Positions 20,430-58,400 of a DNA stretch of 64,000 nt are shown piece after piece. A program made the translations under genes and the position numbers. The stretch lies in the NCBI GenBank assembly GCA_963965975.1, contig OZ014418.1:2988775-3052774 (forward strand), given 5' to 3'. Origin of the DNA: Xestospongia bergquistia (Eukaryota; Porifera; Demospongiae; Haplosclerida; Petrosiidae). A model generated the notes under the pieces. That model made no database searches. It saw nothing but the letters and a program-made list of their open reading frames with translations, and was not told the DNA's origin. The stretch's first letter is position 1. Every line of letters begins with the position of its first letter.

Positions 20430-20935
20430 GATGACACCTCCTTTTTAACATTGTTGATGGACACCAGGACAAACATGTGGAACATAAAGTATATGACATT
20501 GTTCCATCCAGTATTGTAGAATTATCTGCCACACCAGGGAAATGTCTAGATATCAGGCAGTTCCAAAACAAACTGAGTGATCAAGAAGGGTTAAATCAAT
20601 GGATGAAAAAAAGATTATTTATGTCTCCAGACTTTTCTGGGACAGACTGCATTAAAGATTACTACTTGGAGAAAATGAGGCAGTTGTTAACTAAATGCAA
20701 GAACGTTGGAGCTAAAGTAAAATAGATATGAATGCCTTCAGTTACTAATTACTAACTAGTGTTTTAAAGGTGGAATCATCACCTTCTTAGTATATCTTTG
20801 GTCTATGTATGGATTGTTTTAAGGAAATCACTTACAATTGTTAGTGATTGCAGTTATTCTGGAAAATTGTTCTGCGAATGTATTGAGATGTTTGTTAGCC
20901 TTGGCATATCATCCCGTGGTCATCCAAATTAAGGC
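20430..20935 (+). pseudogene. Decayed caspase-like domain (paralogue of the 48 kb domain)
   Basis: The 20477-20725 stretch reads 'SDQEGLNQWMKK' and 'IKDYYLEKMRQLLTKC', matching the penultimate exon of the large gene at 48108-48479 ('SDQEGSNQWMTK', 'SKDYYLEEIRSFFTKC'). After a frame change, 20770-20935 matches its last exon, keeping 'SDCSYSGK' and 'GISSRGH'. The segment that should hold the GHG histidine is missing and stops intervene. No upstream CARD-like exons were found next to it. Confidence 0.75.
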
Positions 20936-30395: not shown

Positions 30396-31471
30396 AGTAG
30401 CTCATCTCCTGATAACAAATATGTTGGTCATGTGGTATATGAAGATAAACATTATGATAGTGAATGGTTAATGAGATTTATTGTTTCTAAACACCTCAAT
30501 GTATTACTAGAGGTAAGTAACACATCAATTCAATATAAACATTCAGAACTTTTTCCATAAAGTTCATAAAAACCCTCTACCATTTAATATTGAAAAATAT
30601 CCACTTGTCCTTCATGTTTCAAGATAACAGTGCCTGTGTTGAACTAAATCTTAATGAAGAACAAATTAAGCTATCCTTTTAACGTATAGTTTTCATCCTC
30701 ATTTAAATCCTGCACAGGTTTAATATGTACATGTTTCAATATTTTTATTATTGTAATGTGAAATTATTATAGATATATAAAATTGAAGTTGATATGTTTG
30801 GTGTTCAAACTCCTCCATATTTTCCCACTCTACTTATCACATTATCAGTAGATGACAGTCCAACTACTGTTATAGAAGGATATAGTATAGTGTTCTTTTA
30901 AAAGAGTAGAACCAAAAAGCAAAAAGATATGTATCATCCATATTTTAAAAACACTGGTAAGCATTATTAAGAAGCATTCATTATGATCAATTTGTATGAT
31001 GCAACTTAAATCTATGAATCCTTTCATTTGTTGTAGGTGGAAATTGCATTATTACGTCTCCTCGTCAAGCTGAAGGAGGTAATTTAATTATTCTTAGTTC
31101 ATTCTACAATAATTGTAATCCATTTATTTCATAAAATAGGTATTACTTCTCCACCTCAAAATGACATCAAAATCAAAAACATTTTTCATATTCACTTTGC
31201 TGAGTTATCTCATCTTGTATCTGTCTCCACTAACAGACAGTCATTAGCCCCAGAACTATATAGTACTTACTTTATAACAGAGTCTCGTTATTATGAGGTT
31301 GTTAATACCAGCAATAAAACAGATATCGAGGATGGTTTGTCTCTGATGAGAGCACTGAAGTCTACTATTCACAGTCAGCCACTGTTATTTGAAAAACTTA
31401 TTGCAGTCCTTGAGAGTGTCGAAGTGTTTGTACATTTAGCTGAAAAATTAAGACACAATTACTTACAATAA
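30396..31471 (+). pseudogene. Death-fold (CARD-like) gene fragment
   Basis: Exon-like pieces: about 30396-30511 ('NKYVGHVVYEDKHYDSEWLM', ending in a GTAAGT donor), about 30620-30680 ('NSACVELNLNEEQIKLSF'), about 30772-30900 ('IYKIEVDMFGVQTPPYFPTL'), about 31038-31078 and 31141-31471. The last ends with a helical region ('LSLMRALKSTIHSQPLLFEK', 'LIAVLESVEVFVHLAEKLRH') typical of CARD-like death-fold modules in sponge proteins. A frameshift near 30620 and a premature stop at 30899 break it. It may be a remnant of a separate death-fold gene or an unrecognised real one with other exons. Confidence 0.45.
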
Positions 31472-31479
31472 CAGTTCAG

Positions 31480-33880
31480 TTGAAACATTTATGAGCTTTT
31501 ATTTATTACTTAATCCTTTTTATAGTTGATTACTTGATTATTGTTGATAATAATGGTTTTATACTAAAAACAATTAGTGTATGAACTACTCCAATCATTA
31601 ACAGTATGTACACAAAAAATGAATACAAAGCTGTGTTAGCAATATATAGGTTATATCTGATCTAGTAGATCTACATAAATGAGATATTTAAATGAACTAG
31701 TAGAATATGGGTAACCAAAGTGCCAAGTGCAGGGATTTGAAGAAAAACTAATTTAAAAAATCATGATTCCATATTAGGACTTGAGATAAAGTGATAGAGA
31801 CTTATCTAACTAAAAAAGAAATTCCAAATGCTAACTTGATTGAAATAATAAGTTAAGATAGAGTTAAAATGAAAGAGTTTATTTTTATTTGAAAAGAGGG
31901 AAGGCCAGTGCAATAGGGAATTTGGAACCCTCAAGAAATGGCATCCTCGAAATAAAATCTCTTAGGGTATTGGTATGTTTAAAGCTGAAGCACTAAACCT
32001 AAAACTCTAAACTCTAAACCCAAAACTGAGATAGCATAAGAGAATTGATATTTTAGAGTTTTCGGAATAATCTGTCAAAATAATAATGTAATATTTGTCA
32101 ACCTGAAAATAGAAATATAATTACATGAATATTTTAATACCTGAATCACTTCATAAAATCGTAGAGATAACTGTTGATAAGAAATAATTTGAGCAGACAA
32201 CGTAGCTATCTTCACATAATACTAGTGTATCAATAGAATGATTATACAGACACAACTAATTAGACTTTACAGAAATAAGTGAAAAAGAATAGAGACAAGA
32301 GCATCAATAAACAACAACGGCAACAACAATACACGTGCTAAGTCACACATTATATACACAGTCAAAGTTCTAGCAAGTTCCAGATAGTAGCATGTGCTCA
32401 CACCTAATAACAATAATTATAAAGAGAGCATACAGGAAGTACAATTAGATAAAACTGTCTTATCTTCAACAATAGCTGATCAACTATAGCATGTCAAAAA
32501 TGTAATCCATGAATAAATTTAAAACATTGTTAACTTTTGATTATTTTTTAAAGTCATGTATACTAATAAAGCAATAACAAGAAAGTTCTGGGAAGCTAGA
32601 ATTATTCCATGATTCATGAGTTCTAGATAACAAAAAAATTCAATGCATCACAGCTAGGCCTACAGTGTCAGTCATACCACTTATAGAATATATGGCAAAC
32701 CTACTACCATAGATCGATCTTGTATTAATTTTGTAGCTAATCGATCTTTATTCATCACATGTGATACAGTTGCATCTGTATCTAACTCTAACAACAGGGT
32801 CTTTATCTGACCTTATATTGGAAGAAGCCGAACTATTAATTTATACAAAGGCAAGACGTATTTGGAGATATGTTGTATTTTATGCTAAGTATTTAGTAAG
32901 TTAGCATGCAGTGGCCACATAGCAGTTACAAACAAACTACAATAATAACAATGGTGAGGGTTCTGCACTTCAATGCTCTTCATTGTTTATTTTAACTGGT
33001 TATTAATTATAATTAATTGATATTACTATTTTTTTAAGAAGACCTTGTTTATAAAACCTTATATATAAGAAGACTTTCTATATATAATAGGATAGATATA
33101 TGATTGTGTTCCACAAATTTAAAAATTCTTGTAAATCTCTGACAATTCTAGGTAAAAACATAATGTAAGCAATACTGGTGCAGTTCATTTTCAACATAAT
33201 GTAATTCCACCTCTTCCAGATAATGAAACAGATCATAATACACATTGGTGCAACAAGCAAATACATCTACCCATAACCTTTCAATCAAGTGACCAGTTAT
33301 AAAACTTCCTCTAGTTCAACCTTGACATTAGCATACCAACTAAAATGTTTTCACCACTATGGTCACAACATAATTGGCAAGGTAATGCCATACCCACTGC
33401 CTGCTTTGACAAAACAATCTAGAAATGTCCTGAATAAGTTATTTGTAGCTGTAAGATTGGTTATTAACCAACTATTCCCCTATGAGTAACAAAATTTCAA
33501 AGGCTAGATTAATGACAATGTAATAACTATATAGGTTTTACCTGATCAATTTATAAGTGCTATCTACTTGCCACAATGAATTTGGAGCTGGAACAGAATA
33601 CTTTCTTCTTTGAACTGATGTACCCCACCTCAATGCAACACTCAATGGATTGACTCTGTTGATAGCTGTTCTGATTCTATGGCACTGTACCCATATAGCT
33701 TGAGTTTCTAGTCAAACCAATATAGAATTTCATCCTATCATTCTATTTTGTTATGTGTATGCTGATACTCTGTGATCTAAAGCAGTGTCAGTCTGTCTGA
33801 TATACTTGAATATCTACTCTAAATGACCTAAATATACTATATTAACATAACACAGCACAATCATGTTTAACCTCATTCTC
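31480..33880. other. Intergenic, with a short 7-base telomere-like run
   Basis: No gene recognised. At 31993-32027 five heptamers occur in a row (CTAAACC, TAAAACT, CTAAACT, CTAAACC, CAAAACT), resembling degenerate CCCTAAA-type repeats; this may be chance in AT-rich DNA. An open stretch at 33289-33486 has no family resemblance. Confidence 0.4.
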
Positions 33881-33884
33881 AGGT

Positions 33885-35281
33885 TTTAAGCAAACAGTAG
33901 CAATCCCTTTGTAGAGATGGCTATGTTTATATTATCACAAACAAACATAGCAATGAATGCAGTACAGCTGTTCCTAGTACCACCTTATTAACAATTAACT
34001 AGTATTGCATTGTACATCTGATTACGTATTAGAGACAATCCTATTGCTTTCCCTTACTTACTATATACTATCTATCATAAGGTCAATCTATCATTGTCTG
34101 TTATATATGTTTTGTCAAATACTACTACATCAATGACACTATGTAAAGTTTTACCAGGTTGCTGAGATTTTTTTGGCATGGAATAACTTGATGAGATAAG
34201 TAAAGACACTCCCTAGCTGATGCTGCTCTGAAAAAATATTGCATCTACTGAATTTTATGCCATAAATTTTAGTTCACGGAAGGTTTAATTGTTTAATTTT
34301 ATTCTATTTTCCTTCATTCCTGTGAACAAATCAAATCAGTAATGGGTGAAGTTTTGACTAAATAAGGTAACAACTGCATTGATATATGAATACTTTTACT
34401 AATTCATATCATTGTATTCCCAACTATAAGTACTAAAATAAGAGAAAAATACATCAGTAATGGTTGGATTTTAAACCAAATTAGGTTACAACGGTGATGG
34501 TATAAAAATTAAAAATACTTATTCATAACATTTTACACTCACAGTGAATACAAGTGTCAGTATAAATAAGTTATAGGAAATGGTCATTTATATCATGTAT
34601 AGTTGTGAACGTAAAATCAAGAACCACTTGCACATGCTATATTTTTGGATTATTTAGTTACATTATATACACTCAAGTTAACTGATAAATGTAATGGTTT
34701 TATATTACCAAGCATTAAATTTAAACATTCTCATATAAAGTATATGGTCAATCTATACATGGTCATATCCAATAAAAAGAGAATAGCAGTAGCCAACTAT
34801 AAGATATTAATGAATGATTGAATGTAGTTCAACCATCAGGAATACAATCACATTGTAAATATAGTTTCTCAGCCACTCAGTTCTGACTAAAGTAAGTCAC
34901 AATATTGTGTAATCACTATGCTGATGTCCTTCATTATGGCTATATTGTATTTGATAACATCATATGGCAATGAATATAATAATAATAACTATTATATTTC
35001 ATGTTGTTTCCTTACATTTCCTGCAAAGATATAACACACTTCAAACGATAAATGAATGACATGTAATAAATGTAACAGAACTAATAACTACTCAACCCTC
35101 AAGTCAACAACATGGCAGAGTCAGTTTATGTGAACATAATTAATTAACTTAATTGCCATTTGTACAGCATTAGTCATAGCTGATGAAAGTGAATATAGTG
35201 ATTTGTTGATAATGCAAGGAAAGTGTAGTTCTCTTGTGGAAAAAATTCAACAAAGAGTTGAATCAGATGGTATTGAATTTA
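33885..35281 (+). repeat. Segmental duplicate of 39190-41230
   Basis: Co-linear with 39190-41230, starting near AGCAATCC...GTAGAGATGGCTATG and running through the repeat region, the linker exon (35030-35105 versus 40963-41055) and the first 115 bases of the next exon (35168 on versus 41113 on). The 33.9 kb copy is shorter mainly because it has two rather than five units of the 102-base repeat. The linker exon here has an in-frame TGA. Similarity stops abruptly near 35281. Confidence 0.9.
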
Positions 35282-37030
35282 GATCCCTTTTCTTATTTAT
35301 AAATGGTAATGTCATTTTAGATATAGCTAATTTGAAAGATGTCATTGAAGGTTTGAAGCAAAGTCACTTCCTAAGCTATCACTGGTCTCCTCTTAGTCTT
35401 TTACAACCTACTCTATCAACTATTAAAGCAAATCATAGGGACGATGTTGAGAGTTGTCTTCAGGAGTGTTTAACTCTGTGGTTGAGGAAAGCTAACAAGG
35501 TGACTGAGAGTGGAGGTCCTACATGGGACTCATTAGCTAGTGCTCTTAACAAGATTGAAGAGAATTTCACTGCTGAAAAGATTAAAAAAATTAGTGAGGA
35601 ATTGGAATTTGTATTTCATATTATGCATCTTTAAATTTTTACAACAGAAAAGTCATTTACCCCTTCCTGTCAAATGCTGCAACAACATACTGACAGAATC
35701 TCACCTCTCATTCTTCCTGTGGAGATTGTTCAGATGTTATATGAAGAGAAAGTGATCTCTAAGGAGACAATAGATGAAGTCAATAGCTTAGGAGTTGTAC
35801 TAGGAGAAGGTCCATTGATTGCACTATGTACTGCAGTGTCTAAAGACCCTAATGTTTTAAAAGTGTTCACAAGTATCTTGTTGAAATCTGAAGAAACATG
35901 CAGAACAGATTGCTAAAGATATACTCAAGGAATATGGTAATATGTTTATATAATATTATTTCCATTATCATTTTTATAGAGAAAAAATTTCCTCCCAAGT
36001 TAATCTTCAGTGTACTTATCCATATGATTTTGATCAGATGGAAGTGACCTTTGGAAATCTTATGATGAAAATGTCACCTCTCATTAAAGCTTGGCACTCC
36101 TTCACTAGAAGATCTCAAAATATATCTTTCAACATGTTTTCAGGACCTAAGACTGCAACTGGCTACAGCTGAATCATTTAATGATGTGATGAATCTTGTA
36201 CATTATAAATGTACTATTATTAATGTCTGCTGTTTGGAGGCTAATATCAACCACTACAATATCACAGCAACTAAACAACACATTGAAGAATTCAAGACAG
36301 CTGTTGATACATTTGTGAGAAGATCAAAACTGACATATGCCTTAAACAAAACTTCAAGATAGCTTTATTGTCTCATCATCTCACTTGTGAGACTATTGAG
36401 TTTGTGCTGGAGTGGGAGACTGACAAATACACACTTAGAGATATCAAAGATTTGCTATCAAAAGCATTTGGAGACATGCATGGCTAAGTCTGTACAAGTT
36501 AGAGCAGTTAATGATGGCAACTCCATCATTGTTACCTGCTATGCTCCTCTAAGTTTGATGGACTCTTACTAACAGTAGCAGAGAGGAATCCTAAGCTACT
36601 AGAGAGAATGGAGTAATGAAATTAACATTTGGCTATCACACCATTTATGATAAATGTCAGAGAGATGAAGTATGAGATGAGTAATATTAGACACCAGTTA
36701 CTGTATATAGGAGATTAAAACTGTTGTAGATGAGAACACAAAGGAGTTAAGAAGTCAACTGGAACTACAACAAACCATTAGTAGAAAAGTGATAATGGAA
36801 AAAGAGTCTATGATCAGAGAACATGAAAGTAACACTAATATAATATATTATTATTTGTACATGTACATGTATTATAATAGAGACATATCATTGATGTTAT
36901 AATATATGGTCACTGTTATAACTATTATATTTAATAGATAATGTATAGTGACTAGTTTTGTATTTATAGAAAATAGACAAATAAAAGAAAAGGAAGTACA
37001 AAAAAATGCAAATGTCGTCTTGGCTAGTCT
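35030..37030 (+). pseudogene. Broken paralogue with Death and CARD-like domains
   Basis: The 5' part is the duplicated linker and start of the unnamed domain (35168-35281). At 35281 this is fused to other sequence, and an exon from about 35324 encodes a Death domain: 'LKDVIEGLKQSHFLSYHW', 'LSTIKANHRDDVESCLQECL' and 'TLWLRKANKVTESGGPTWDS'. Next comes a CARD-like exon (35649 on; 'EKVISKETIDEVNSLGVVLG', 'LIALCTAVSKDPNVLKVF') with a frameshift near 35890. At 35990-36660 lies a divergent copy of the unnamed domain seen twice in the large gene ('NFKIALLSHHLTCETIEFVL', 'SIIVTCYAPLSLMDS'), with stops and shifts. Coiled-coil exons follow at about 36720-36836 and 36970-37030. There is no caspase-like exon. 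Not a functional gene. Confidence 0.75.
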
Positions 37031-37530: not shown

Positions 37531-40500
37531 ATGGCTACTAGTAAATCCGACAGTTTTAAACCTCCTACTAAAGAATATAAATTGTTACAGAAGTACTTTG
37601 GAATTTTGCTCCATACAATTACTGATCCAGTCACGTTAGCTGCAGACTTATACGCTGCTGACCTCATCTCCGAATCGACTCGAATGAAAGCAACTACTGA
37701 GAGCAATAATCGTAGTATCAGAAATTATTATCTACTAGATGAATTATTGATTGCAGTAGCTAACGATTGCACTAAATTTGTAAACATTATTTCTGTGTTG
37801 AAATCTTATCGCCCATTACTTAGTGCTATTGCTGAGGAAATGAAGACTGAATGTGGTAAGAAAATGACTATACTATAGTAAAATAACTATTGATCATCTT
37901 TCAATTGTATAAGACTAATTCAATAATTTACTCACTCCCACAGAGTCATCAGTAACAGATAATATTCATCAACAAAGTCTAAAGAGTAAGTTTAAAAATA
38001 CAACAGTAACAATAAAAATAATCATAATCATTTTAGATATTTTCACATGTACAGTTGGTGAAAGTGCATATAATGATTTGACTGTAATGCAAATAAAATT
38101 AGGTGCTCTAATTTTAACAATTAAAAAAGACATCAAGTCAGCTGGCATTGAATTTGATGACCTCAAGGACTTACTTATCCTATCTTATCCATTTGAAGAG
38201 GAGATTCAAACAGCAGAAAACTTTTCAGATATTTTTGTTGCTGTTCGTAAACAATGCTCACCAATTAATATAGACGTCCTTGTGCAAATTGTCAGTCATT
38301 TCAAACTTGCTGGTGCTCAAATGGCCATTCAAGAATATGAAATTGAAAAACAGAAGTATTGTAGGGAGTTATTGAGTGCTTCGTTTGCTCAAGAGGTAAA
38401 AAAGGAAGTTGAACTAATGGGTCGTAATCCTACACCAGACTGTACCATTGCTCTGAAATTAAAGTGGGCTAGAGCAAAACCTACAACAGTGAAAGAATTT
38501 GAGATAGTAATCAAAAATCTGTTCCTCGAGTACTCTCAATATATTCACATTTGTGATGTAGCTGAAGGTTGTATCTTTATTACTATGTGTGCCCCTAAAT
38601 CACTAGTAGAAGCAATATTGAAAAAAACAAAGACAAGGCTACCATATCTCCTTAATGTTGGACTAATCATGCTAAAGATTGGACATGAAGTTATCCTTGA
38701 TAAGAGTGAGAAAGAGGTATAATTATAATGAATTCTTAATAGCTACATACTAACATATCTATACCAACTCAGATGTATAGTGTAACTACATATCTACCTA
38801 TATGTACATTAATATCCAGTGAATATACTATTGTACTTTATTTATGTCACTATATTTTAGGAAAACTATGAACCTAATTTAGAAATTACTGATACTCCTG
38901 GTATTAGTGGTCTCACTCAATCTGTTTCAGTAGATGAGAGTATTAAGAACAGTGCAGAGAGAGAGGTAAGACTATTGGATTAATTTCTATAAAATAATAT
39001 AAAGAATTGTTACTATGTTAAGATAATAGATACAGAAGTGTATCAAATCATCTCAACTATATCTCAGACAGGTTAGTAATGCTATGCAGGCATACAACTC
39101 ATATGGAAATCAACAAAAGTTTATGTTATGTGACAATATTCAATAATACCAATAGCATAGATCAACTTTGTGAATTACTAGTAAACTTTGATTAGCAAAG
39201 CAGCCAATAGCAATCCTTATGTAGAGATGGCTATGTTCTGTTAATAAGATCATGAACAAACATAGCAATGAATGCAGTAGCGTTGTTCCTAATACCATAC
39301 TAGCAATTAACTAGTATTGCATTGTCATCACATACTAGAGACAATCCTACAGCTTTCCCTTACTTCCTATTTGCTATCTATCGTAAGGTCAATCTATCAC
39401 CCAGAACTACACTTTTGTCCTATATCATTAATGGTAAAAGTGTTGGTCCATATCATATACAATGAAGTATGGACCTGTGCTATACGTGCTAGATAGTTTC
39501 CTAGTATTTTAAATAATTGTCATACAAACTGTTCCCATGTAGCAAATTCAAAGTATGAATACGATATATAGCAACTGTAAATTTCATTGAATGGAATGTG
39601 CCTGTGATGGGTGACGAAAATAGGTCACAACAGTAGCATCATAGCCGTATGTTATTATTCAATATATCATTGAATAGACCAAAGATAAAGGAGAGAAAAT
39701 TGGAATTGAAACAGGAGTGAATCACACATATATTACTATGGCATGTGCTCAGATTTTAATCTGACTTTAAACATTTGTCTTTTATATACGTTTTGTCAAA
39801 TACTAGTACATCATTGATGCTGTGTAAAGTTTTTACCAGGTTGCTGGGATTTTTAGAGACATTCCCTAGTTTATGCTGATCTGAAAATTATTGGATCAAC
39901 TGAAATTTATGCCATAAATTTTAGCTCAAGGTTTAATTGTTTAATTTTATTTCCAATCTCTCTCTCCCCTCATTCCTATGAATAAAGCAAATAAGTAATA
40001 GGTGGAGTTTTGACTAAATAAGGTAACAACTGTGATGATATATGAAAACAATACTAATTCATATGACTGTATTGCCAACTATGAATACTAACATAAGTAA
40101 TGGGTGGAGTTTTGACTAAATAAGGTAACAACTGTGATGATATATGAATACAATACTAATTCATATGACTGTATTGCCAACTATGAATACTAACATCAGT
40201 AATAGGTGGAGTTTTGAGTAAATAAGGTAACAACTGTGATGATATATGAATACAATACTAATTCATATGACTGTATTGCCAACTATGAATACTAACATCA
40301 GTAATGGGTGGAGTTTTGACTAAATAAGGTAACAACTGTGATGATATATGAATACAATACTAATTCATATGACTGTATTGCCAACTATGAATACTAACAT
40401 CAGTAATGGGTGGAGTTTTGACCAAATTAGGTCATAACAGTGATGGTATAAAAATACTTATTCATAACATTTTACACTCACTGTGAATACAGGTGTTGGT

Positions 40501-43500
40501 ATAAATAACTTATAGGAAATGATCATTTATATAAAATCATTTAAAATAAAATCAAGAGCTACTTTATATTTTTGTACTATTTAGTCACATTATATATGCT
40601 CAAGTTAACTGATAAATGTAATAGTTTTATATTACCAAGTATTAAAATTAAACATTCTCATATGAAGTATATGGTCAATCTAAACATGGTCATATCCAAT
40701 TAAAGAGGATAGCAGTAGCCCAACTATAAGATGATTGAATATATTTCGACCATTACTCAAGATTCATGCAGGAATATAGTCACATTGCAATGCAAATATA
40801 ATTTCTAAACAACTCAGTTATGACTAAAGTAAATCACAATATTGTGTAATCACTATGTTGATGTCCTCTGTTATATCTATTGTTTATTTTTGATATCATA
40901 TGCCAATGAATATTAATAGTAATACTATTATACTTCATGCTGTTTCCTTGCATTTCCTGCAGAGATATCAACACTTCAAACTATAAATGAACAACATGTA
41001 ATAAATGTAACAGAACCAATAACTACTCAACTCTCAAGTCAACAACATGAACATAGTGAGTCTAAACAAATATCAATAATTCACTTACCTAACTTAATTG
41101 CCATTTGTACAGCATTAGTCATAGCTGATGAAAGTGAATATAGTGATTTGTTGATAATGCAAGGAAAGTTAAGTTCTCTTGTGGAAAAAATTCAACAAAG
41201 AGTTGAATCAGCTGATATTGAATTTGATGATCTCAAAAACTTACTTATGCAGTTTTATCATTATAAAACAAGGATTCAAAGAGCAAGCAGCTTCAAAAGT
41301 GTTTTCAATATAGTTCGTAAGCTTTGTTCACCAGTTAACATAGAGGTTCTATTCCTTATTGCTGATCACTTCAAACAATTTGATATTTTAAAAGCTATTC
41401 AAGAATATGAAAATGATGAACAGAACTATTGTAAAAAGCTGCTTAGCAGTACATTTGCCCAAGAGCTCAAGAAGGAAACTGAGCTATTGGATCGTAATCC
41501 TACACCTGAGTGTACAATTACTCTTAAATTAAATTGGCCTTCAAGTGATATTTTAACAGTTAAAGAATTTGAAAAAGTCATCAAAAACCTGTTCTCTGAC
41601 TACTCCAGGTACATTCACATTTGTGAAGTAGGAGAAGGTTGCATTGTTATTATGTGTGCTCCTAAACCGCTAATGGGAGCATTAGTGAAAATGGCAAAGA
41701 CAAGACTACCATATCTCCTTGACATTGGAGTGATTTTTTTACAGATTGGAGATGAGATTATCCTTAATAAAAGAGAGAAAGAGGTAAAGACATCAAAAAA
41801 TCATGTTGAACATATCATTATTACATAGTAATTATCTATTATTATTTGTATCACTGTAATTCTTTTACAGACAACATCCAATGAAGCATACAGACAGAAT
41901 TCAGTCATTACTGATGCTCCTGGAAATAATATTCTCATCTCAAAACTAGGTTCATCTGATCAAGGACTTGAGGAAATCCAAACAATGCATAGCCAAGAAG
42001 AGGTCACACCATGTATCAGTAAGCATTTACATAGTAATACTATATTATTGAATGTTACTTACTTTATAGGTTCACAACAACAAAATCAATTGGAGAAGGA
42101 TGTCTCTGATAAACAGACAATTGATGAGGCAAGAGACAAAAGTTATTAAGTGTTTTGTTGATATGTCTACAATCTACAGGAAGTTAAAACTCTTGAAGAA
42201 GAAGTTATGGAGTTGAGACATCAAATAGAAATACATGTACAAGAAATCATCAGTAAACAGCAGAGTATGGAACTTGAGTCAATTGTAAAACAAAGTGAAG
42301 GTATTTGTATAAATTGTGTGTTTTAGAACATGAAATGGAGTATGTAGCAATTGAAGAGTATATTAACTTAAAACACTATTCCACTCTGTATCTTTAAAAT
42401 TTATCGGGTTAGCTCTTATATTTTTACATGTAGAAAGATTCACAGTTTCAGCTTAAAATAATAATTAGTTGCTAGAAGACAATCTGATTGTTATCAATAT
42501 AAGCAACAATGTAGTTGATGAATGTAAACCTGCAGATGGTCATGGTTTGTCAGAGGTTGACTGTACAGGAACATTGCCCAAATTCCTGTTTTTATTCACC
42601 TAAGCAACTCCAGCAGCTTTAGTTGCTAAACCATAAAGGACTATCTTAATTTTGGTAGCACTAAAGAGATGAGATAGTTTTAAATTTTCTTAAGTGAAGT
42701 ATTGATTATTGTTATGTTACTATAATATGTTCATAATTATCTTTTAATAGCTACTAAGAAGTTGTTATCAATGACATCAAAACAACAACAAGAGATGGAG
42801 GAAATACTTAGATTGTTAACTTTACAACTAAGTAAGAGGGAAAGAGAAATCATAAAACAGAGCTTGAAAGGTAGCATTTGTTATTAGAAATTTAGAACAG
42901 TTATAAATTCTCACTGACAACAGATCTAGCGTTTTTGTTAAAAACTACAGAACCAGACTCATCTGATCAAGGATTTAAGGAGACCCAAACCATATCTAGC
43001 CAAGAAGGAGAGCCAACATCAACTATCAGTTTACATCCAGGTATTATAAAAGCAATATAAAACTTCATTCCTACTTTTAGTAGACTAAAAATAGGAATAT
43101 AGTGTTATTAACAACATTACATTCAAATATTTGTGTATCCCCTATTTAAGATAACACTCTATTTATTCACCATACACAATAACAACAGATTTTTCTTATT
43201 CTATCCCTAACGAAGCTGACTCAAACTTTACTGATTCTTTTGAGATATTAAAAATGAAGAGGGTTGAGAACCGTACAGAGAGAGAGGTAACAACATTGAT
43301 GGATTAATTTATGTAAGATAATATGAAGTATCATTTTTGTGTTTAGGTAATACATTCACAAGTGTATCAAGACCATCATCATCCAGTAGATTGCTCTTCT
43401 ATCGTCTCAGATAGTTCTCAGACAAGTTAGTAATGACATTTGAACTAAAACTATAATTATTGTCTAGTAATATATATTAGAGTACAGTCAATGTATTTGT

Positions 43501-46500
43501 TACTCACTTTATAGCTCCACAACAAGAAAGTCAACAGTCTGAACTAGAGAAGAATGTCACTGATAAACAAAGAAGTGATGAGGTAAAGACAACTTTTTGT
43601 TATCACCTTGGCACAAAAAGCTTGTAATACGTAATAGTTTTGGACTTCTTTGTTTACTATTTTTATTCTATGGTTGTAAATGAGAATTGAAAGCAATAAA
43701 ATAGAATTAAGCCTAATACTTATATATTTATTGCACATGGCAATCAATTGTGAGTGTAGAGGTGATGGCTATCATTGATCTGTTGTATGCTTAAAAGTGC
43801 ATGATTGTGACATCAGCATCTTACAAACAAATACAGGATGATTTTTTGCAATAATAAACTTGTTTAGTAATGTGGTTTAATCTACAGGAAATTAGAGCTC
43901 TTGTAGTTGAGATTGAAAAGTTAAGACATCAACTGACTAAACAACAAATCATTAGTAGAGAGAAGACTATGGCAATAGATTCTATTGAAGGTATTTTTAT
44001 ACATTGTCTTTTTGAATTCACTGTATTAAATCTGCCTGTTCTTAATGAATTACTTTGATTATACATAGTAACTAGTCATATTACCATCTTTAGAAAAGAC
44101 ACAAATAAAGGAGAGAGATGTTCAAAATTTGACATCACTTTTGGAAAGAAAGGAAGGTACGTGCATAATGACAATTATTACAAAATATCCTTCAAATTGA
44201 TGTGATATGGTGTTGGTTTAGTATGAAAAAACAAGGATGTATATTTCATTTTGACACTTTAGAAGCAGATTTAGTAATTCCATATCAAAGCCTATAAATC
44301 TGGTATAGTTTTGCTGAGTGTAACTGTATTATATACTTTTCCTCAACATTCCATGTTAGCTAATTCTAAATTTTTTTTTGATAAAAGACAGTTAACAAGT
44401 GTTGGCAGATGTGCAGTCTGTCGCTAAGTTTTGACTGATAGTTTTAATTAAACTGACTAGAAGTAAAAAGGACCACAACTGAAAGAACAAAACACATAGA
44501 TATATCTTATAAGGAGAACAAAAAAGGTCAAAACTCTAATAAAAACTCATTAACAACTAACTTAGTTACATATACAGTAATCAACACACACATGCGCAAC
44601 TGCCTAATTACATAAATGTAGATTTTTAACAATGCTCCAACTTAATTTTGGAGGTTGTATTCCATTCCCATAGTTGACTGCAGTGTCACAAACTTTCTTC
44701 TCACTAGCAGCTTCATCTGTAGATCAGCAATCATTTCACTTGTTGGACAATATTATAGATTAATTGTTCATTCCCTCACAGCTTCACGAATATAGTGAAA
44801 CGGATCTCAATGTGTTTTGTGGTGGCTGACTTTTGGCTTCTTTCCACAAATGGCATCATATTTTCCTTGATGGCTTTTGTTGGTGTTCAGTTTCTGACAT
44901 GTGCTGCTGTGGCAACTGCTTCAGCCCAATACTTGTCTGATAATCCAGCATGAGCAATCATTGATCTAGCTAACTTCATTGGTGTTCAATATGTTCTTTC
45001 TGCCACTCCATTTTGTTCTGGTGTATGAGGTACAGTCAACTCATGACGTATCCCTTTTGACTTCAGGTATTGCAGTTTGAACTATACAGCTTGTCGATTG
45101 ACCACTTTTCATCCACTGTCTCAGACATTCTCTAGAAATGGTACGAATCAGTAAATCCAGAGGTTTTTGGTTAGTTTCGCAACAGCACAGTCCTATGTGT
45201 GTTCACTTCCTGCAGGGGTAGTAAAGTTTCTGTTCTCAATACAACAGATCTACTTGGAGACTGGGCTCATAACCTTTTGGTAGATGTGCAGTCTATCATT
45301 CAACAACTCAAAAGTCAAAACTCTAATAAAAACTCATTAACACCTAACATAATTACATATACAGTAATCAACACATACAGATGCACTTATTACACAACTG
45401 CCTAATTATATAATCATAATTATAAGAAAGAAGCAGTGTGTGTACTTTATATAGGAATGATACCATTGCCATCACTGTCAAACCTGATACTCCCTATATA
45501 GATACGCTATCTTTGTGAAACAGCTGCTGATGTTTTTAAATTTTAACTGAGTGGTTTAGCATACGTGTTTCTAAGTAGAATGTGTAGAAGAAAGCAATTT
45601 AGAACATGGAAATTTTTACATTGACTCTTACACGACTTAAATCAAATTATAATTCAGTCACTAAATATAGATGTTCCTAATACTACAATGTATTGAGAGC
45701 CTCTGATCACCAAATGCAGCTTGTATGAGATACTATGTATTAGCATATTTTGCTAAGACATTTGAATAGGCAATCTGAGCTATCACTACATAAGTGGTGC
45801 TACAACTTGCCTAAACATATGGCAATTATCTCTTGTCAGTCATTTGTCTATTCGACTGAACATAATGATGTTTCCTTTTTAGTTAAAGAGAAGGAGTTAC
45901 TGTCTATGTTAGAAGAGCAACGACAAATGATACTAAGTCTTCAGGAAAATATAAAAACACTAACATTACAACTAAGTAAGAGAGATACAATTAATATGTT
46001 ATATGTAAATTACATTCAATCATTATGCATTCCATATAAAAATCATACAATATATTTAATAATACAGTAATAATAATTCAGATAGTATTTACTTCAACTG
46101 TTGAAAAATTTCAAATTAACAAAAAGTTAATTTGATTATGAATTTAGTTGCTAACAGCTTCTCTTATTCTGTTGCTAAACTTAGACATTACTGACACTCC
46201 TGATGATATTGGTATTCCTCAAAATATATCTGCAGATGAGAGTGTTGGCAAGAGAGAGGTAAGACTATTGGATTAATTATATAAGATAATATAGTGTCAT
46301 TTCTGTGTTAAGGTAATATCTATAGAATTATATCAAGGCCAACCTCTTCCAATAAACAACTCTTCTATCATCTCAACTACCATTCAAACAGGTTAGTAAT
46401 GATGTTAATACTATTGTTAAAATTATTATATCACTAGCATTCTTGTGAAATAGTTGGTAAGAATTTAATTATTAGTTATTACTGAACATGTGAGCCTTAG

Positions 46501-48996
46501 TGGAGACCAAATAAGGAGAAAATAACAATTAATTTTCTTCAGTCACCTTTTTCAAAGACTTAATAAAAGCCTTTTATTAAAAAATGAAAACAATAGTGAA
46601 GAAGTTGTATATCTAAACATGTACATATCTGACTCAGTTTGCAGCATAGATTTTTATACAGATAACTTGAAAATTTGACTATTGCTAACTTGACATGACT
46701 TACCTAGTTATCAAATCAATTACTTTTAATTGTAAATAGTATATTATTTTTTTTCAAATAAACAAATGTAATTAATGGACACATACACCGTCTATACATA
46801 ATAGCCCAGATATATTGATAAGAACTATGTAACTATATTATCTTTATATTATTGCCATTGAACAAGAGTATAATTATAAATGAATGTCTTAACATTATGT
46901 TAATAATTACCATTCGTTTTAGTGCAGTCAGTACACATCTTTCTTGCTAATATCAAAAACTGGAAATTTAAAGTCACATATAACAATAGGATAAGATGCA
47001 ATCATACAAGCACTTATATATTAACTTTAAATTTTATGATTACTAAGAGCCTGAGTGAAATTATATAGATATTGCGTACAATCAACGTTCTGCCACACAA
47101 GATCTATACTATTAGAATTATGATTTCTATTTATCAAGAATAAAGTTTTTTTCTTTATTGTATTGTAATACTAATGTCTTCCCCCTAAACTTCAAACATC
47201 AAGTATATGCAACAAAGAGATAGACTTCCCATAAGTACCAGACAAACAGCCACTTCTAATTTTGGTGTCGGTTTTGAAACTCATATCCAAGACTAATTAA
47301 ATTCATTGGTTGTCATGTGTATCAGATTTTGGAGAACTGTATGTCTTGTCATTGGCAGTCCTACTAATAAAATGTTTTCCCGTTTTAGTAGACAGTATAA
47401 AGTTAAGTTCCCTTTAACATTTTACTTATTGTATACAGTAATAGAATGAATGAATGAGTGCAAGTAGAGACACAAGCATGAGTGTTGTGAAATGACACTC
47501 ATGCACTCCTGATATAACATATGACTAAAAATAATGTAGGACTGACTAGGACAAGTTTGCTTTACTATATGTAATGATAGTTATATGATGTGTTACCTGT
47601 GCTATCTATTTTATTTATCAGTACTGTTTGCATCATCACACACCTACTTTTGCTATTTTAAAAGTAATCTTTATTAGACTAGTATGTTCCCGCTGTTCAG
47701 CAATAATTTTTAAAGCTTAAAGTGTTATATTGATATTGTGTTGTTCTGTATTATATCGGATACAAGTTTGATAATACCTCACAGCAGATAGTGATAGCTT
47801 AAATCCGTTCATTAAAATTACAATATATAACATTACTATTTAAAAAATATATATAGGTTAGACAATAATTTCTACAGGAAATAGAAGAAAATAGCAAAGC
47901 CTGAGTTCTGTGTTTACTGTAGAAACATCCAACACCTTATCTCACTAGTTTTGAACCACAAAACTAACCTAAGGAAACTATGTTTATAAACATCAGCTCT
48001 CTGTCAGTAAATTTATATTTTATGTTTCTCAAGTAAATTTATATTTTATGTTTCTCATTAATGTCAAAGGAAATTATTCATAAATTATTGTCTAATTACT
48101 GTTAAAGTTGCTAAACAGCAACAGGTGACCATAGGATTAAAACAAAAATGTATATTATTGAATTTAAAATCACAAGAGTATACTTTAACCTATCTAGAAA
48201 ATCATCAGTTCACTAAATATGATCTCTTGATAATTGGTTCATTTGGAGAAGTGTCTGCTTCTCAAACCGTTCAAGTTGCACACAAACTTATACCCAGTGA
48301 TCAAGAAGGATCTAACCAATGGATGACAAAGGAGATTGACAATATAATGAAATTGCATGAAAAAAGTCCACATTGTGATCATATATTTCCTTGTTTTGAT
48401 CTTCCAGGAACTGAAATCTCCAAAGATTACTATCTTGAAGAGATAAGGAGCTTTTTTACTAAATGTACACAAAACTCAGGTAAGAGGGACACATATATAT
48501 TATATAGATTATACATGTTAATTATTTAGCTATTATCTGTTACACTGGTCATGGAGAAATGAATACTGGTAACTGGTGTTTCAAAGATGGAGTCATCACC
48601 TTCCAAGATATCTTTGGTCTTTATATGGATTACTTCAGAGGAAAACACCTCTCATTAGAGTCTGATTGCAGCTATTCTGGTAATTGGATCAAAGATTGTG
48701 TCAAAACTCTTGATGACCTTGGTATCCCATCTTGTGGACATTACACAAGAGAACAAAGAATATCACTTATATTATTTAGTTCCTGTGGTGATAATGAAGA
48801 AGCTACTGCACAGTGTTACATTAACGAGGCTCTAGAAATTGATGAAATAAGTAAACTTATTTTAGTGTCCTATAATAAGAAACTCTCATCAGGACAAACT
48901 ACAAAAATGGGTGACTTTAGAAAACTTCGTTGTGGCAAGAAAACTAGAGAGAAATGCCAAATTAACACTGCAAGTACCTGGAGAAGGAACTTATAA
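37531..48996 (+). CDS. CARD-like / unnamed domain x2 / coiled coil / caspase-like protein, 22-exon model
   Basis: Exons: 37531-37855, 37944-37985, 38037-38716, 38861-38965, 39023-39071, 40963-41055, 41113-41783, 41871-42018, 42070-42128, 42180-42300, 42751-42870, 42924-43040, 43189-43286, 43347-43425, 43515-43582, 43888-43990, 44094-44156, 45883-45975, 46185-46258, 46313-46391, 48108-48479, 48530-48996. All phases agree; total 4026 bases, 1341 residues. Residues 1-108 are a CARD-like death-fold helical domain ('LLQKYFGILLHTITDPVTLA', 'LLDELLIAVANDCTKFVNII'). Residues about 123-349 and 432-655 are two copies of an unnamed domain ('CSPVNIEVL', 'RNPTPECTITLKL', 'YIHICEVGEGCIVIMCAPKP', 'TRLPYLLDIGV'). 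Residues 656-1062 are short repeated linkers and coiled coils. Residues 1063-1341 are caspase-like, with a candidate catalytic His1194 in 'CYTGHGE' and Cys1233 in 'SDCSYSG'. This suggests a cytosolic oligomerising sensor or adaptor with a protease output. Exon 3 could instead start at 38055; the intron after 42128 uses GC. Function inferred; activity unproven. Confidence 0.75.
39994..40505 (+). repeat. 102-base minisatellite, five units, inside intron 5
   Basis: Units begin AGTAAT(A/G)GGTGGAGTTTTGA at 39994, 40096, 40198, 40300 and 40402, so the period is 102 bases. The last unit diverges (CCAAATTAGGTCATAACAG). The duplicated region at 34.3-34.5 kb has only two units, so the array expanded here or contracted there. 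Confidence 0.95.
44400..45415 (-). mobile_element. Internally deleted Ty1/copia element with LTR-like flanks
   Basis: The reverse strand carries integrase core sequence (about 45090-44880: 'IRHELTVPHTPEQNGVAER', 'ARSMIAHAGLSDKYWAEAVA') that jumps directly into the very end of copia RNase H (about 44840-44650: 'TKHIEIRF', 'YCPTSEMIADL', 'RRKFVTLQSTMG', in broken frames). A direct repeat flanks it: AAAACTCTAATAAAAACTCA and surroundings at about 44402-44614 and 45279-45414, in the positions expected of LTRs. The element sits in the intron between the exons ending at 44156 and starting at 45883 of the large gene, in antisense orientation. Confidence 0.7.
45645..46700 (+). repeat. Segmental duplicate of 58427-59372 (source or copy)
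   Basis: Carries the coiled-coil exon at 45883 and linker exons at 46185 and 46313 of the large gene, and matches 58427-59372 co-linearly, including TACAATGTATTGAGAGCCTC and the intron sequence after 46400. The left 400 bases also match 29720-30100. The other two copies have damaged exons, so this one is probably ancestral. Confidence 0.85.
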
Positions 48997-50530
48997 TGCA
49001 GTACTGAACACATGGATATTTAAATTAAGTACCTCAATCTTTTTAACACTTTTAAGGGAACAATAATTAATAATATTATAAATAATTGTGTAATCTTACT
49101 CATACAAAAACTGAATCTACTGAAATCTCAAGTTTAATGTTAATTGTATGCCTTTTGAGGATCATAATTATTGTATTGATAATTAGCCATTGGAACAGAA
49201 TTTAAAAATTAAAAAGGTTTTAATTAGTTTATGCATCCTTGACAACCATAATCCAATTAGTAGCTGTTTCTAATAACAAAACATTTGAGTAACAATAAAA
49301 TCAATTGCATCTGTATTACTAAATAGGTACTTTTACTAAAACCAGATCATATGTGAATCTAGTCAATGATATATATTCTAAGAGACATTGATAACAGGCT
49401 TAGTTCTCTAACCTTTTCCAAAGGGGCATGATACTTTCAATACGGATTACTATATCTCAAACACATAATAAAATAATCATATGATATTAACACATAACAG
49501 TTGCAATGATATGTACAATAAAAGATTGGCAAACAATCATCTTACAAAGTACCAGCTCTTGCTTTTACTAATGCTCCAATTAGCAGTTAGAGGCACATAT
49601 AACCTTCAGCCACTCACTTTTCAAAGATGAATATATTAATAATAATCAATAATTTTTTGGATTACTATCTCAAACTCTTTCGCTGTTAAAAGTATGGCTC
49701 TAGATAATTTTAGGTTGAGGACAATAGTGGACTCTTATATAGGTTTGCTTAATTTCCATAAAGTCAATGCAGTTGATTGGACTCTCTGGATGATTTAAAG
49801 ATTTGTACTGGAGTATTTAACCCCAATAGCACCATAATTGCAACACGGATAATTATTTTAAAGTTAGTACAGATCTGCAGCTATTGTGACTAGAGTGGTA
49901 ATTACTTAAGTACTTGTGTAACACTTTATATTCCTTAGTAGAAGCTATAAAGGTGTCAGTGTTACTAGTATTCATTGTTGTAGTCTCTCTTTGAAGATCC
50001 ATCCTAGCAGTTTGTATTTACACCAATTTGTTGACATAAACATTCAGCAGATGTGTAATACCCTATATGGAATAATATGAATATCACTATATCATAATAA
50101 TTATAATGCAAATTATGTGAATAATAAATATATGCTATATTTATGTGAAGCATATAAAAAAGTAAACAACAGATTTTAAAACAAAAAAGACTTTAGTATC
50201 TAAGTGATAGTGTGGACTTTACAACTGGTTTAATTTATCACTTTACTGAAAATATTTTACATTACATATTGTACATTGCACTTCCTACAACTACATGACC
50301 AATCTACATTTATAATTTAGTTTAAGATATACAGATTGGATCATAGAATTAGTAATTTTTTTTCAAAACAAAATAGTACAATCATTGTTAACAATACAAA
50401 AAAAAACAAATTGTTCAGCTAGGAACTAGAGTAAAAGACAATAGAAAGAGGATATCATATTCATCAGTGAAAATGATAAATACCCAAAGCAAGTACACTG
50501 ATAGAACATATCAATTACATAGCTGTTATC
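48997..50530. other. 3' flank of the large gene, nothing else recognised
   Basis: AT-rich DNA after the stop codon. No protein family or repeat was identified. Confidence 0.4.
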
Positions 50531-50534
50531 TAGT

Positions 50535-51549
50535 ACACTGTTTATGAACAGATGAACACTGATAACTGGTGTTTTAAACAGTTTCTCATCACCTTTTGAT
50601 ATCTTTGGTCTATATATGGATTAGACAAATACAACTCACAATACAAGTTATATTCTGGTAACTGGATCAAAGATTATGTCAAAACTTAGATGATTTTGGT
50701 ATCTCATCATGTGGACATGACACAAGAGACATGTAATGAGACTTAAAGAATCCTGTTCCTACAATAAAGTAACATAATAGCAACAGGAATGTGTTACATT
50801 ATAGAGGCTAATGACGTTTGATTAAACAAACAAAAATATTGTCATTGACCACATATAAAACGCTATCATCTGGGCAAAATACAAAATATGGTGGTTTTGA
50901 TAGACTTCACTGTGGCAATACATCCACTGAGACCTGTGGAATAGACTCTACATGTACCTGTGAGAATCATTATATTCAGAATGGGCAATCACGTTAATAT
51001 GTACCTTATGGTATACAGATAATCATAGAATGTCAGTATAGGGTGAACGAATGTGAACTTTCATGAATGGCAGATCCTGATCTCAATTACATATTTGTGA
51101 AGGTTGTGAAAGAATGACAAAGAGAATGGCAAATAGACCTGGTATTATGAGCAATGATACTTTCAGAAAATATAGTACATGCACATGCACAAATTGGACT
51201 TAAAGGTTTAAGCAACCTTTATTTCTAATGTTATGATAACAGCTACATTAGATCTGTCAGTTGGTACAAAGTAATCGTTAATATGTTCCTTAAAGGTCAT
51301 CATAGAATGATTATATACAGTGAACAAAAATGTCCTACTGAAGGATGGGTCTTGATCTCAATTGCATATCTGAGAAGGTGGCGAAAGAGTAATGGTCGAA
51401 ACATAACCATGGCTACTAGTAGCATTAACTCAATGATGATAGTTTTGTACCTTCTATCAAAGAGTATCTGTGATAAGCCTAACTGCAACTACATACACTC
51501 ATCGAGCTTCTGTAACCACATTTATAGTTTTAGGTGTGGCTTATTTTGA
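50535..51549 (+). pseudogene. Decayed caspase-like 3' end, with a duplicated C-terminal extension
   Basis: 50540-50960 matches the last exon of the large gene in broken frames: 'NTDNWCFKQ' against 'NTGNWCFKD', 'YSGNWIKD' retained, 'SGQ'-like remnants retained. The catalytic positions are lost: the GHG region reads 'CYTVYEQ' and the SDC preceding YSG is gone. Downstream, 51265-51400 reads 'SWYKVIVNMFLKGHHRMII' then 'YSEQKCPTEGWVLISIAYLR', and a more damaged version of the same stretch lies at 50985-51125, so this extension is present twice. A related C-terminal extension is absent from the intact gene at 48996. Confidence 0.65.
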
Positions 51550-55794: not shown

Positions 55795-58400
55795 TTGGGT
55801 TACAAAATGGTTACAGCATCGAGAACGCTTTGGAGCTTGCCATCATTTGTAGAAGCTTCTCTACTTCTAAAGGAGTCATTGAAATATATTATTGAATGGC
55901 CGATATTAGAGTGGGAAGGTAAAGACCCACAAAAAGTTTGCATAATGGCAGCAACAGCCAATCAGGTAAAAACATAGACCAGTCATGTGACTTATTTAGT
56001 TTAAATCTTACAGAAATATCATTTCATTAAGGAACTTTAGAATACAAGGAATTAGCAGAAATAGAAGTACTAACAGCTTATAAATTCAAGGCAGCTCACA
56101 ATCAAATTTAAATTTGAAAAAAAAATATAAATAATTATATGTAAATAGTACAACAATCTTCTTACTTTTAGATCGAGAATTTGAGGCAGTAATTTTAAGT
56201 ACAGTTGAGCCTACGTCAGGGGAAGGAAAGTCTAAAAATCCTACCAAGAATCCATGTAGTCAATATGTCTTTAATACTGCTTTAACACGTGCTAAGTCAC
56301 TTGTAGTATGTGCTGGTAATCCATTCCTCTTAATGAAGATAGAGAAACACATGAACAATGAGTGTTCCTGTTGGATGGATTACATTAGGCGATGTGTGGT
56401 ATCTAAAACATTTCATGTAGCTACCAAGGTATCAGGTACGAAAACTGTTCAAGAGTCATTGCAATGTCACCAAACGGCAATCTTTCCAACCAGTGATATG
56501 AAGGACGATACTGGTAACTTTAAAGACAGCAATTTAAAGTCTTACCAACAAGCAATTCAAAAGATGCCCAAAAACAAAGACTGCAAGCTCAAAATTGCAG
56601 AGGAACAAAGTGACAGCAGGTGGAATAATGTCAAAATTGATGGCAGAGTTGACCAAAGTTTGGATGATGATAACGACATTGGAGATATTGAACATTATAC
56701 AAAAAGCAAAAGTGGTCACTTGTGAATTGTCAATTATAAATGAGAATCAAGCCAAAGCTTTTCCTATTAATGCAACAAAGTATTATAATCCAATAGTAAT
56801 TAATAGTTATAATCACAGGAGGCGTGCATTTAAATTGGGATACATGTGTTTGATAAAAGAGGAACATAGAATAGTTATTTTTATAAAAGAAGCAAGACAT
56901 CCTACTGAGTATGTTTGTAGAGCCAACCAATATAATATTATCAATTTTTTTATCCTGTCAATAAATCTGTCCCAGCTATTGTCAACTTGCCAAAATTTCG
57001 CAAAAGCTAGTGAGATATCAAGATCAAGATATGCATGTTGATTACATTACTGTTTACTCAGAGTCATCTCTGAAGTTTCTACATGAAAATGATGATCAGC
57101 TTCCACAAATTAAAGAATTCATCCCTTTTGATCAGGCACAAAACCTCTTGTTTGTTATTGAAGTTCTTGGCTGGGCACCAAAGTAGAGGAAACCAGTAGG
57201 AGCTGTAGTAGAAGCATTGCCTCGTACAACTAACCTCTTTTTACTGAAAGGCTTTTGACTATTGTTCACAATATTGAGTCAAACAATATCACTGACATAG
57301 AGATAACATTGGAGGAACCAAACAGAGATTATGCAGTTCCACATTATGTTCAAGCATTTTCAATTGATCCTCCAGATTTATTAACCTTTATGATATTATT
57401 AGTTTAGTTCCCATTGGACCTTTCCAACCACTACAAGATGAAGGCATGCACAAATTAGCTATAATAATTACTAATGTTGCTAAATACATCCCCAAAGATC
57501 ACGATCTTGATAAATTATAAAGAGGAACTTCAGTTTATGGTGGATGGAAAATCAAGCATATGTTACCACTTAAATTAACAAATCAAATCTTTAGTTTTAA
57601 TTATAATACAAAAATATAATTCGTGATGTATTAACAGTAACACCCACTGTATATAGTAGTGAAAGAAGGAGAGATATTAGAAGTATTGTGTAATGATCCT
57701 GAGAAAGCCCAAGTGACATCTCAAGCTCAATTAACATATGAAGCACAGGATATGTTAGATAGAAAAGCAATTAAAGATGAAGAATCACATAAGCAAGTGA
57801 GCGAGTTTGATGCAAAAAATGGAGACAAGTACATGGCTAACACTCTCAAGTTACTGTTTAAAATCGTGATGCATTTGCGAGAAAAGCGTCTAAAGGAGGC
57901 AGCATTCAGTATTTTGTCAGACCAAAATGAAAAAGATGACAGCTGCTGGCAGTCCCATCTACTTATTTCAAAATTAATGATTCGGGCTAATTCAATTATA
58001 GCAAGTTATTTGTACCAAAATCTTACACAAAAGGTACTACTGCTTACACAAGTTCCATTCCAAATAGACAATCTAGCTAAATTTAGAGGTATCTTTTACC
58101 AAACACTCTGCTATTCACTAAAACTATAAATATATTGTAAGTCAGAAGATGACAATAATAGCTTTATTGTTGCACATCACAGTTTACAACTTGATGCCTA
58201 CACTCACTTCACATCTTCAATTCAACAATATTTTTAAATCAAAAAAAAAAAAACCAAAATGGCACATTGTTTTAGCTTCGTTGGATAATAATCACAACAA
58301 CCTGCTTTGTGATCCTCAAATGAATAACTTCACAAACAACTCAATACCAAAAGAAGAGACAAGTGGCATATATTGTTTGTATAGAAGCTAGTGTATCCAG
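55795..58400 (+). pseudogene. Decayed HELZ2-like SF1 helicase plus RNB exoribonuclease
   Basis: About 56170-56420 reads 'FEAVILSTVEPTSGEGKSK' and 'YVFNTALTRAKSLVVCAGNP', helicase motifs V/VI of the UPF1/MOV10/HELZ2 group. After a linker, about 56980-57500 carries 'YSESSLKFLHENDDQLPQIK', 'RKPVGAVVEALPRTTN', 'SIDPPD', 'VAKYIPKDHDLDKL' and 'GTSVYGGWKIKHMLPL', the RNB fold order. 57690-58010 holds the next block ('LTYEAQDMLDRKAIKDEESH', 'WQSHLLISKLMIRANS'), and 58150-58220 the end 'HHSLQLDAYTHFTSSI'. Stops and frameshifts are frequent, and about 80 codons present in the 29.2 kb copy are deleted near 58140. In vertebrates HELZ2 is a nuclear coactivator induced by interferon. This copy cannot be functional. 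Confidence 0.7.

Follow-up and report, generated by a model that had tools for sequence, protein, structure and literature searches.

A predicted sponge gene joining a CARD, two DED-TRADD-N units and a putative caspase-like domain with serine in its nucleophile slot

The locus and its gene model

A 64,000-bp stretch of a Xestospongia bergquistia contig (OZ014418.1; C8:2988775-3052774; hereafter the window) was analyzed, with searches of the genome covering 146 Mb in 21 contigs. It contains, at 37531-48996 on the + strand, a gene whose predicted product begins with a CARD, continues with two DED-TRADD-N units and a series of linkers, and ends in a caspase-like domain. The gene was rebuilt from splice motifs with the reading frame kept throughout, giving 22 exons in phase, no internal stops and a product of 1322 residues. 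Twenty of the 21 introns are of the GT-AG type and the remaining one, after exon 9, is GC-AG. Three possible 3′ ends of exon 18, located at 45936 (1309 residues), 45975 (1322) and 46026 (GC donor; 1339), are all in frame. The first-pass annotation, made from the sequence alone, had also joined 22 exons in phase; the frame could be rebuilt without a stop, but the modeled length is 1322 residues and not 1341.

The exons and two further remnants (all on the + strand) are listed below; L046, L047 and L048 are three loci on the same chromosome with which an exon-by-exon comparison was made.

Exon 1, 37531..37855, +: CARD (predicted fold)
Exon 2, 37944..37985, +: short linker; GT-AG, phase 1-1; no L048 match
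Exon 3, 38055..38716, +: DED-like plus TRADD-N-like unit, first copy; AF2 secondary structure, DED and ferredoxin-like matches, paralogs
Exon 4, 38861..38965, +: linker module TDTPG...REV; matches in L046 and L048
Exon 5, 39023..39071, +: linker module EVYQ...SQT; matches in L046, L047 and L048
Exon 6, 40963..41055, +: short linker preceding the second unit, in a position equivalent to exon 2; GT-AG, phase 1-1; no L048 match
Exon 7, 41125..41783, +: DED-like plus TRADD-N-like unit, second copy; 59% identity to exon 3
Exon 8, 41871..42018, +: linker; GT-AG, in frame; no L048 match
Exons 9-10, 42070-42128 and 42180-42300, +: coiled-coil module; both in L048 with identical splice edges; heptad score
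Exons 11-12, 42751-42870 and 42951-43040, +: linker modules; both in L048, order kept
Exons 13-14, 43189-43286 and 43347-43425, +: linker modules, round two; matches in L048
Exons 15-17, 43515-43582, 43888-43990 and 44094-44156, +: coiled-coil modules; L048 matches, order and splice edges kept
Exon 18, 45883..45975, +: coiled-coil module, 3′ end ambiguous; L048 match
Exons 19-20, 46185-46258 and 46313-46391, +: linker modules, round three; exon 20 in L046, L047 and L048, exon 19 in L046 and not L048
Exon 21, 48108..48479, +: caspase-like domain, part one; 60-70% identity to three paralogs, donor kept
Exon 22, 48530..48996, +: rest of the caspase-like domain, then stop; motif and metacaspase alignments, genomic matches
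Relic, 20450..20900, +: broken caspase-like domain; frames read, weak match (E 0.07)
Relic, 50400..51100, +: caspase-like domain with several stops; family match C8:3039299-3039589

Locus L048, located approximately 320 kb away, contains in a span of 9.2 kb homologs of exons 1, 3, 4, 5, 9-18 and 20-22, which can be read in order and have AG/GT at identical edges for most exons (a few edges are displaced or were not found). At the threshold applied, exons 2, 6, 8 and 19 had no counterpart in L048; this locus lacks exons 6-8, and exons 3 and 7 match one and the same unit within it. The repeat-like modules (exons 14 and 20; 9 and 15; 16) each match multiple L048 places. Splice edges are identical in the three paralogs of exon 3 (49-75% identity), and the top L048 matches of exons 15-17 show 74-86% identity. 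The collinear run therefore indicates that CARD, DED-TRADD-N, linkers and caspase-like end co-occur at another locus, and the exon joins of the model are supported by the identical exon order of the paralogs.

The order of domains was also examined by a chain test, in which matches on the same strand with neighbours no more than 9 kb apart were linked by coordinates alone, without splice models. The input comprised 31 of 34 CARD-exon, 43 of 150 DED-TRADD-N, 28 of 34 caspase-like and 10 of 99 Pfam C14 matches. The order CARD, DED-TRADD-N, caspase-like was found at nine loci (including the window gene) on C8, C1 and C14, and only the window gene among these nine has two DED-TRADD-N units.

In phylogenetic trees, exon 3 was placed with L037/L039, exon 7 outside that group, and exon 22, on a long branch, with L008; all of these forks are below the tool's star. 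Because the three exons group separately, the gene looks like a mosaic of parts with differing histories. The origin of exon 7 by simple internal duplication of exon 3 is not favoured (88/93 support for the separating fork, also below the star).

It is unlikely, in our view, that the region holds two genes, one of them short (exons 1-5, CARD-DED-TRADD-N) and the other made up of exons 6-22. Such a division would agree with the separate, though unstarred, tree placements, as well as with intron 5, which is 1.9 kb long and holds a 102-bp tandem repeat (4.5 copies, 39994-40457). However, L048 carries front, linkers and caspase-like end in one ordered 9.2-kb run, the splice phases fit, and no Met precedes exon 7 in the open frame of exon 6, so that a second gene would require an additional first exon.

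The death-fold front and the linkers

Exon 1 is predicted to adopt the six-helix fold of a CARD: in a structure comparison, the top 16 of the 50 matches listed were CARDs or CARD-bearing entries. The CARD-like N-terminus read from the sequence is thus borne out at the level of predicted structure. Pfam CARD matched neither exon 1 nor five relatives, none of its 32 matches falls on the places of the CARD-exon family (compared by eye), and Pfam scans of this N-terminal family gave nothing useful overall. Pfam CARD also matched weakly upstream of two copies of the other families, one caspase-like (C3:828654, E 0.06) and one DED-TRADD-N (C3:1830867, E 0.15).

Exons 3 and 7 represent two copies of a unit of about 220 residues. 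Its AF2 secondary structure consists of six predicted helices (residues 2-104) followed, at low confidence, by a beta-alpha-beta-beta-alpha-beta arrangement (strands 130-136, 162-168, 171-176 and 200-207; helices 144-154 and 180-198). Structure matches ranked 1-2 are DEDs of FADD/caspase-8/cFLIP, covering residues 1-97, while ferredoxin-like and ACT folds match residues 126-215; TRADD itself was absent among the 50 unit matches listed (VIA-align), which excludes nothing. An EGC motif, replaced in some relatives by AGS or GNS, is placed at the b2-b3 turn of the predicted TRADD-N-like fold. The conserved small-residue-Ser/Cys motif of TRADD-N proteins is reported to sit at this turn (PMC8195603).

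Profile searches gave weak matches to both parts of the unit. Pfam NCOA6_TRADD-N matched 4 of 26 members (best 14.7 bits, cut-off 22.5) and neither of the window copies; among eight rescanned divergent members, three match it with residues 130-200 aligned to profile positions 16-83. Residues 22-97 of exon 7, and of this exon only, match Pfam DED (E 0.02; 15.5 bits, cut-off 35.9). A Pfam TRADD-N scan of the genome gave no match, with the control silent as well, and profile searches against PDB sequences with the CARD, DED-TRADD-N and caspase-like domains yielded nothing useful. The DED-TRADD-N family comprises 483 first-look candidates in the genome, 150 of which were scored; a family of this size is in keeping with a sponge origin. 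On the predicted structures, the unit is a putative DED-like helix bundle followed by a TRADD-N-like fold. The two copies seen in the first-pass annotation are therefore real, but the domain is not unassignable as it was held to be; that it has no relatives was rejected in view of the genome family, the weak NCOA6_TRADD-N matches and the predicted folds.

Two frames upstream of the gene (both +) resemble parts of this front. The one at 31088-31471 resembles, by eye, a further CARD exon, without a Pfam match. In the other (35140-35634), the first ~45 residues are a near-copy of the start of exon 7 and the remainder matches the Pfam Death domain (E 0.00075; 20 bits, cut-off 22.6). The stretch 31088-35634 is, judging by its sequence, a putative case of exon shuffling among death-fold genes.

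The claim of repeated coiled-coil linkers held in part. A home-made heptad score, compared with 1000 shuffles of the same stretch, was reached by 9 shuffles for exons 9-10 and, more weakly, by 48 for exons 15-18. No signal was detected for exon 11 (201 shuffles), and the whole protein (11.4) did not pass the 95% shuffle level (11.5).

The caspase-like C-terminus and other elements of the window

The search of the genome with the caspase-like family gave 34 matches, of which 28 have open frames of 162-392 residues. None of the 99 genome matches of Pfam PF00656 (C14) overlaps these 34 places (compared by eye), and only two of ten family members reach E ≤1 with this profile (best 0.11). Other profiles also gave only weak matches: (i) PADLOC/NCBIfam SIR2 in 2/10 members (best E 0.0018), (ii) PADLOC/NCBIfam caspase_w_EACC1 in 3/10 (best E 0.011) and (iii) Pfam MAPB1_N in 5/10 (best E 0.006; 12.7 bits in one member, cut-off 27). 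A p10-like motif is weak, and when profiles of canonical and bacterial caspases were compared with that of the family, the alignment was weak and anchored on the His strand. No relatives of the family were found in prokaryote, viral and plasmid collections, and a plasmid search with another caspase of the genome gave nothing useful.

The motifs CYTGHGE and SDCSYSG, taken by the first-pass annotation as a visible His and Cys, are present (His codon 48550, Cys codon 48667, Ser codon of the next residue 48670). Two of 30 loci are frames of one broken copy, and the counts given here refer to 29 readable places. The sequence D-C-S-Y occurs in all 29, with both the Ser of the nucleophile slot and the preceding Cys invariant; the His is kept in 20 (19 YTGHGE, 1 YNGHGE) and replaced by Asn in nine. 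The slot was identified from PDB chains of Mca1 (4f6o, FDSCHSG; 4f6p, FDSAHSG) and MCA2 (FDC[A/G]HSG). Wild-type MCA2 has DCCHSG at this point, and the catalytic residues of Mca1 and MCA2 are used here as generally assigned.

In ungapped comparisons, the mean score of the 29 copies over the His strand was reached by 0 (MCA2) and 3 (Mca1) of 20,000 random segments, and for the nucleophile elbow the corresponding counts were 0 and 1 (0 and 5 for the window copy alone). Since the compared segments were picked by motif, these counts are not unbiased, and stronger evidence comes from comparing the two registers. When D is aligned to D and SG to SG, the nucleophile is matched by the Ser (means 30.7 and 24.5); with the Cys on the slot, the means fall to -10.4 and -6.0 and both D and SG are misplaced. 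As the His strand and nucleophile elbow align with Mca1 and MCA2, the suggestion that this C-terminus is closer to metacaspases is upheld. The visible Cys, in contrast, lies one residue ahead of the slot, which is occupied by Ser. By its sequence, the C-terminal domain is predicted to be caspase-like, with metacaspase-like motifs and the Cys nucleophile lost.

A protease output with a Cys nucleophile is thus not supported, given the slot Ser in 29/29 copies and the change of His to Asn in 9/29. It is quite unlikely that the Cys of SDCSYSG is nonetheless the nucleophile of an active protease, with a one-residue insertion compared with metacaspases and the YTGHGE His as its partner. The invariance of this Cys, the His kept in the window copy and the purifying selection acting on the family would fit such an enzyme, but the register scores, the displaced D and SG and the His missing from nine copies do not. 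An active Ser hydrolase, using the slot Ser and the His as a dyad on a caspase fold, seems highly improbable: the Ser is invariant and the His present in 20/29 copies, but Asn replaces it in the others, and bacterial orthocaspases with a slot Ser are reported to be presumably inactive (PMC6426788).

In ten aligned rows of the family, seven Cys and a CGH are invariant, which makes a metal site possible. Nearly all other intact copies (exon B end, L003-L027) carry about 80 extra C-terminal residues (TWEDR...SGWG..PP) that the window gene and L008 are without. This piece also occurs free of the caspase-like part (C6:7798962-7802028), as a separate small domain.

The shortened end, together with the long exon-22 branch and the broken relics at ~20.5 and ~50.5 kb, might indicate a decaying, non-functional copy within a birth-and-death cluster. 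We regard this as very unlikely, given that all 22 exons are open and in phase, that the ratio of nonsynonymous to synonymous substitution rates (dN/dS) against paralogs is below 1 in 44/44 rows (0.16-0.68; several loci are listed under two names), and that the shortened end is shared with L008.

Elsewhere in the genome, a cluster of PF00656 matches was observed at C11:6283511-6473670. Several of these, when translated (e.g. L090, L092, L093), are by eye without SHG and QACRG, and the cluster is a probable second, canonical-type set of pseudo-caspases.

Other elements of the window include retroelement pieces at 3545-3937 and 6003-7502 (-), where RNase H-like domains and, weakly, an integrase were matched, and a stop-rich stretch of intron 17 (44640-45100, -) resembling, by eye, a Ty1/copia integrase. 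A HELZ2-like gene (56135-58129) lies downstream; its RNB domain is located at 57641-58129 (+; E 2.3e-12) and a helicase-like stretch, seen by eye and without a Pfam match, at 56135-56725 (+).

Related systems and proposed role

The gene had been put forward as a candidate new death-effector architecture. Its general layout is not new: 357 Amphimedon queenslandica proteins with death-like domains and TRADD-N, followed by variable C-termini that include caspases, have been described (PMC8195603). The window gene resembles the NCOA6-clade TRADD-N proteins of this set in having death-like domains followed by TRADD-N, a variable C-terminus and a large lineage-specific expansion. It differs from what is described there in its CARD, two DED-TRADD-N units, three rounds of coiled-coil linker exons and a Pfam-invisible caspase-like end with a Ser slot, although the Amphimedon caspase examples may include the same family. 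Bacterial pseudo-orthocaspases also have Cys changed to Ser in the slot and are presumed inactive, but their His is mostly replaced by Tyr (PMC6426788), compared with Asn in nine of the 29 sponge copies.

Type I metacaspases (yeast Mca1, T. brucei MCA2) share with the window gene a gap-free alignment of His strand and nucleophile elbow and, in the MCA2 chains, a Cys immediately preceding the slot; they differ from it in that the window gene has the slot Ser, death-fold adaptors in front and no Pfam C14 match. A DED front joined to a caspase-fold domain without a nucleophile recalls c-FLIP and its relation to caspase-8. However, c-FLIP derives from true caspases, whereas the end of the window gene is metacaspase-like and its front has a CARD, TRADD-N and coiled coils in addition. 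The combination of CARD, coiled coil and caspase-like output is also found in the CARD-coiled-coil/BCL10/MALT1 complex, but there it is spread over three proteins and the paracaspase has known proteolytic activity. What may be new is the Ser-slot caspase-like branch, for which no description was found in the open-access literature, as well as its size and a possible exchange with canonical caspases.

The reading that we favour, with some reservation, is that the CARD, two DED-TRADD-N units, coiled-coil linkers and caspase-fold end without a Cys nucleophile form a c-FLIP-like regulator in death-fold assemblies. The layout of a self-assembling scaffold is supported. The product is probably cytosolic and, because serine occupies the key cysteine slot, its part in immune cell death is probably that of a switch or a decoy and not of a cutting enzyme. 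In such an assembly, (i) an upstream CARD protein would seed the complex through the CARD, (ii) the DED and TRADD-N units would recruit further partners, (iii) the coiled coils would dimerise the chain and (iv) the pseudo-caspase would pair with an active caspase, switching it on or blocking it, much as c-FLIP does with caspase-8. A candidate partner, as judged from sequence, is encoded by a C11 locus, put together by strand and distance, where a DED and a canonical caspase domain come after a front of related type (CARD and DED-TRADD-N); the genome may therefore have both live and dead outputs that share one type of front.

More tentatively, the family may be seen as a tandemly expanded Ser-slot caspase-fold branch in which the His comes and goes, with the shared front and its live and dead outputs constituting an activator/decoy system or, in a bolder form, with a catalytic Ser-His protease. 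If this is true, caspase counts based on Pfam C14 would overlook about 30 loci of this genome, and a catalytic call that relies only on seeing a His and a Cys can be wrong. An early-branching animal would then regulate death signals with arrays of caspase folds that are dead or re-armed, in parallel to c-FLIP but from metacaspase-like stock.

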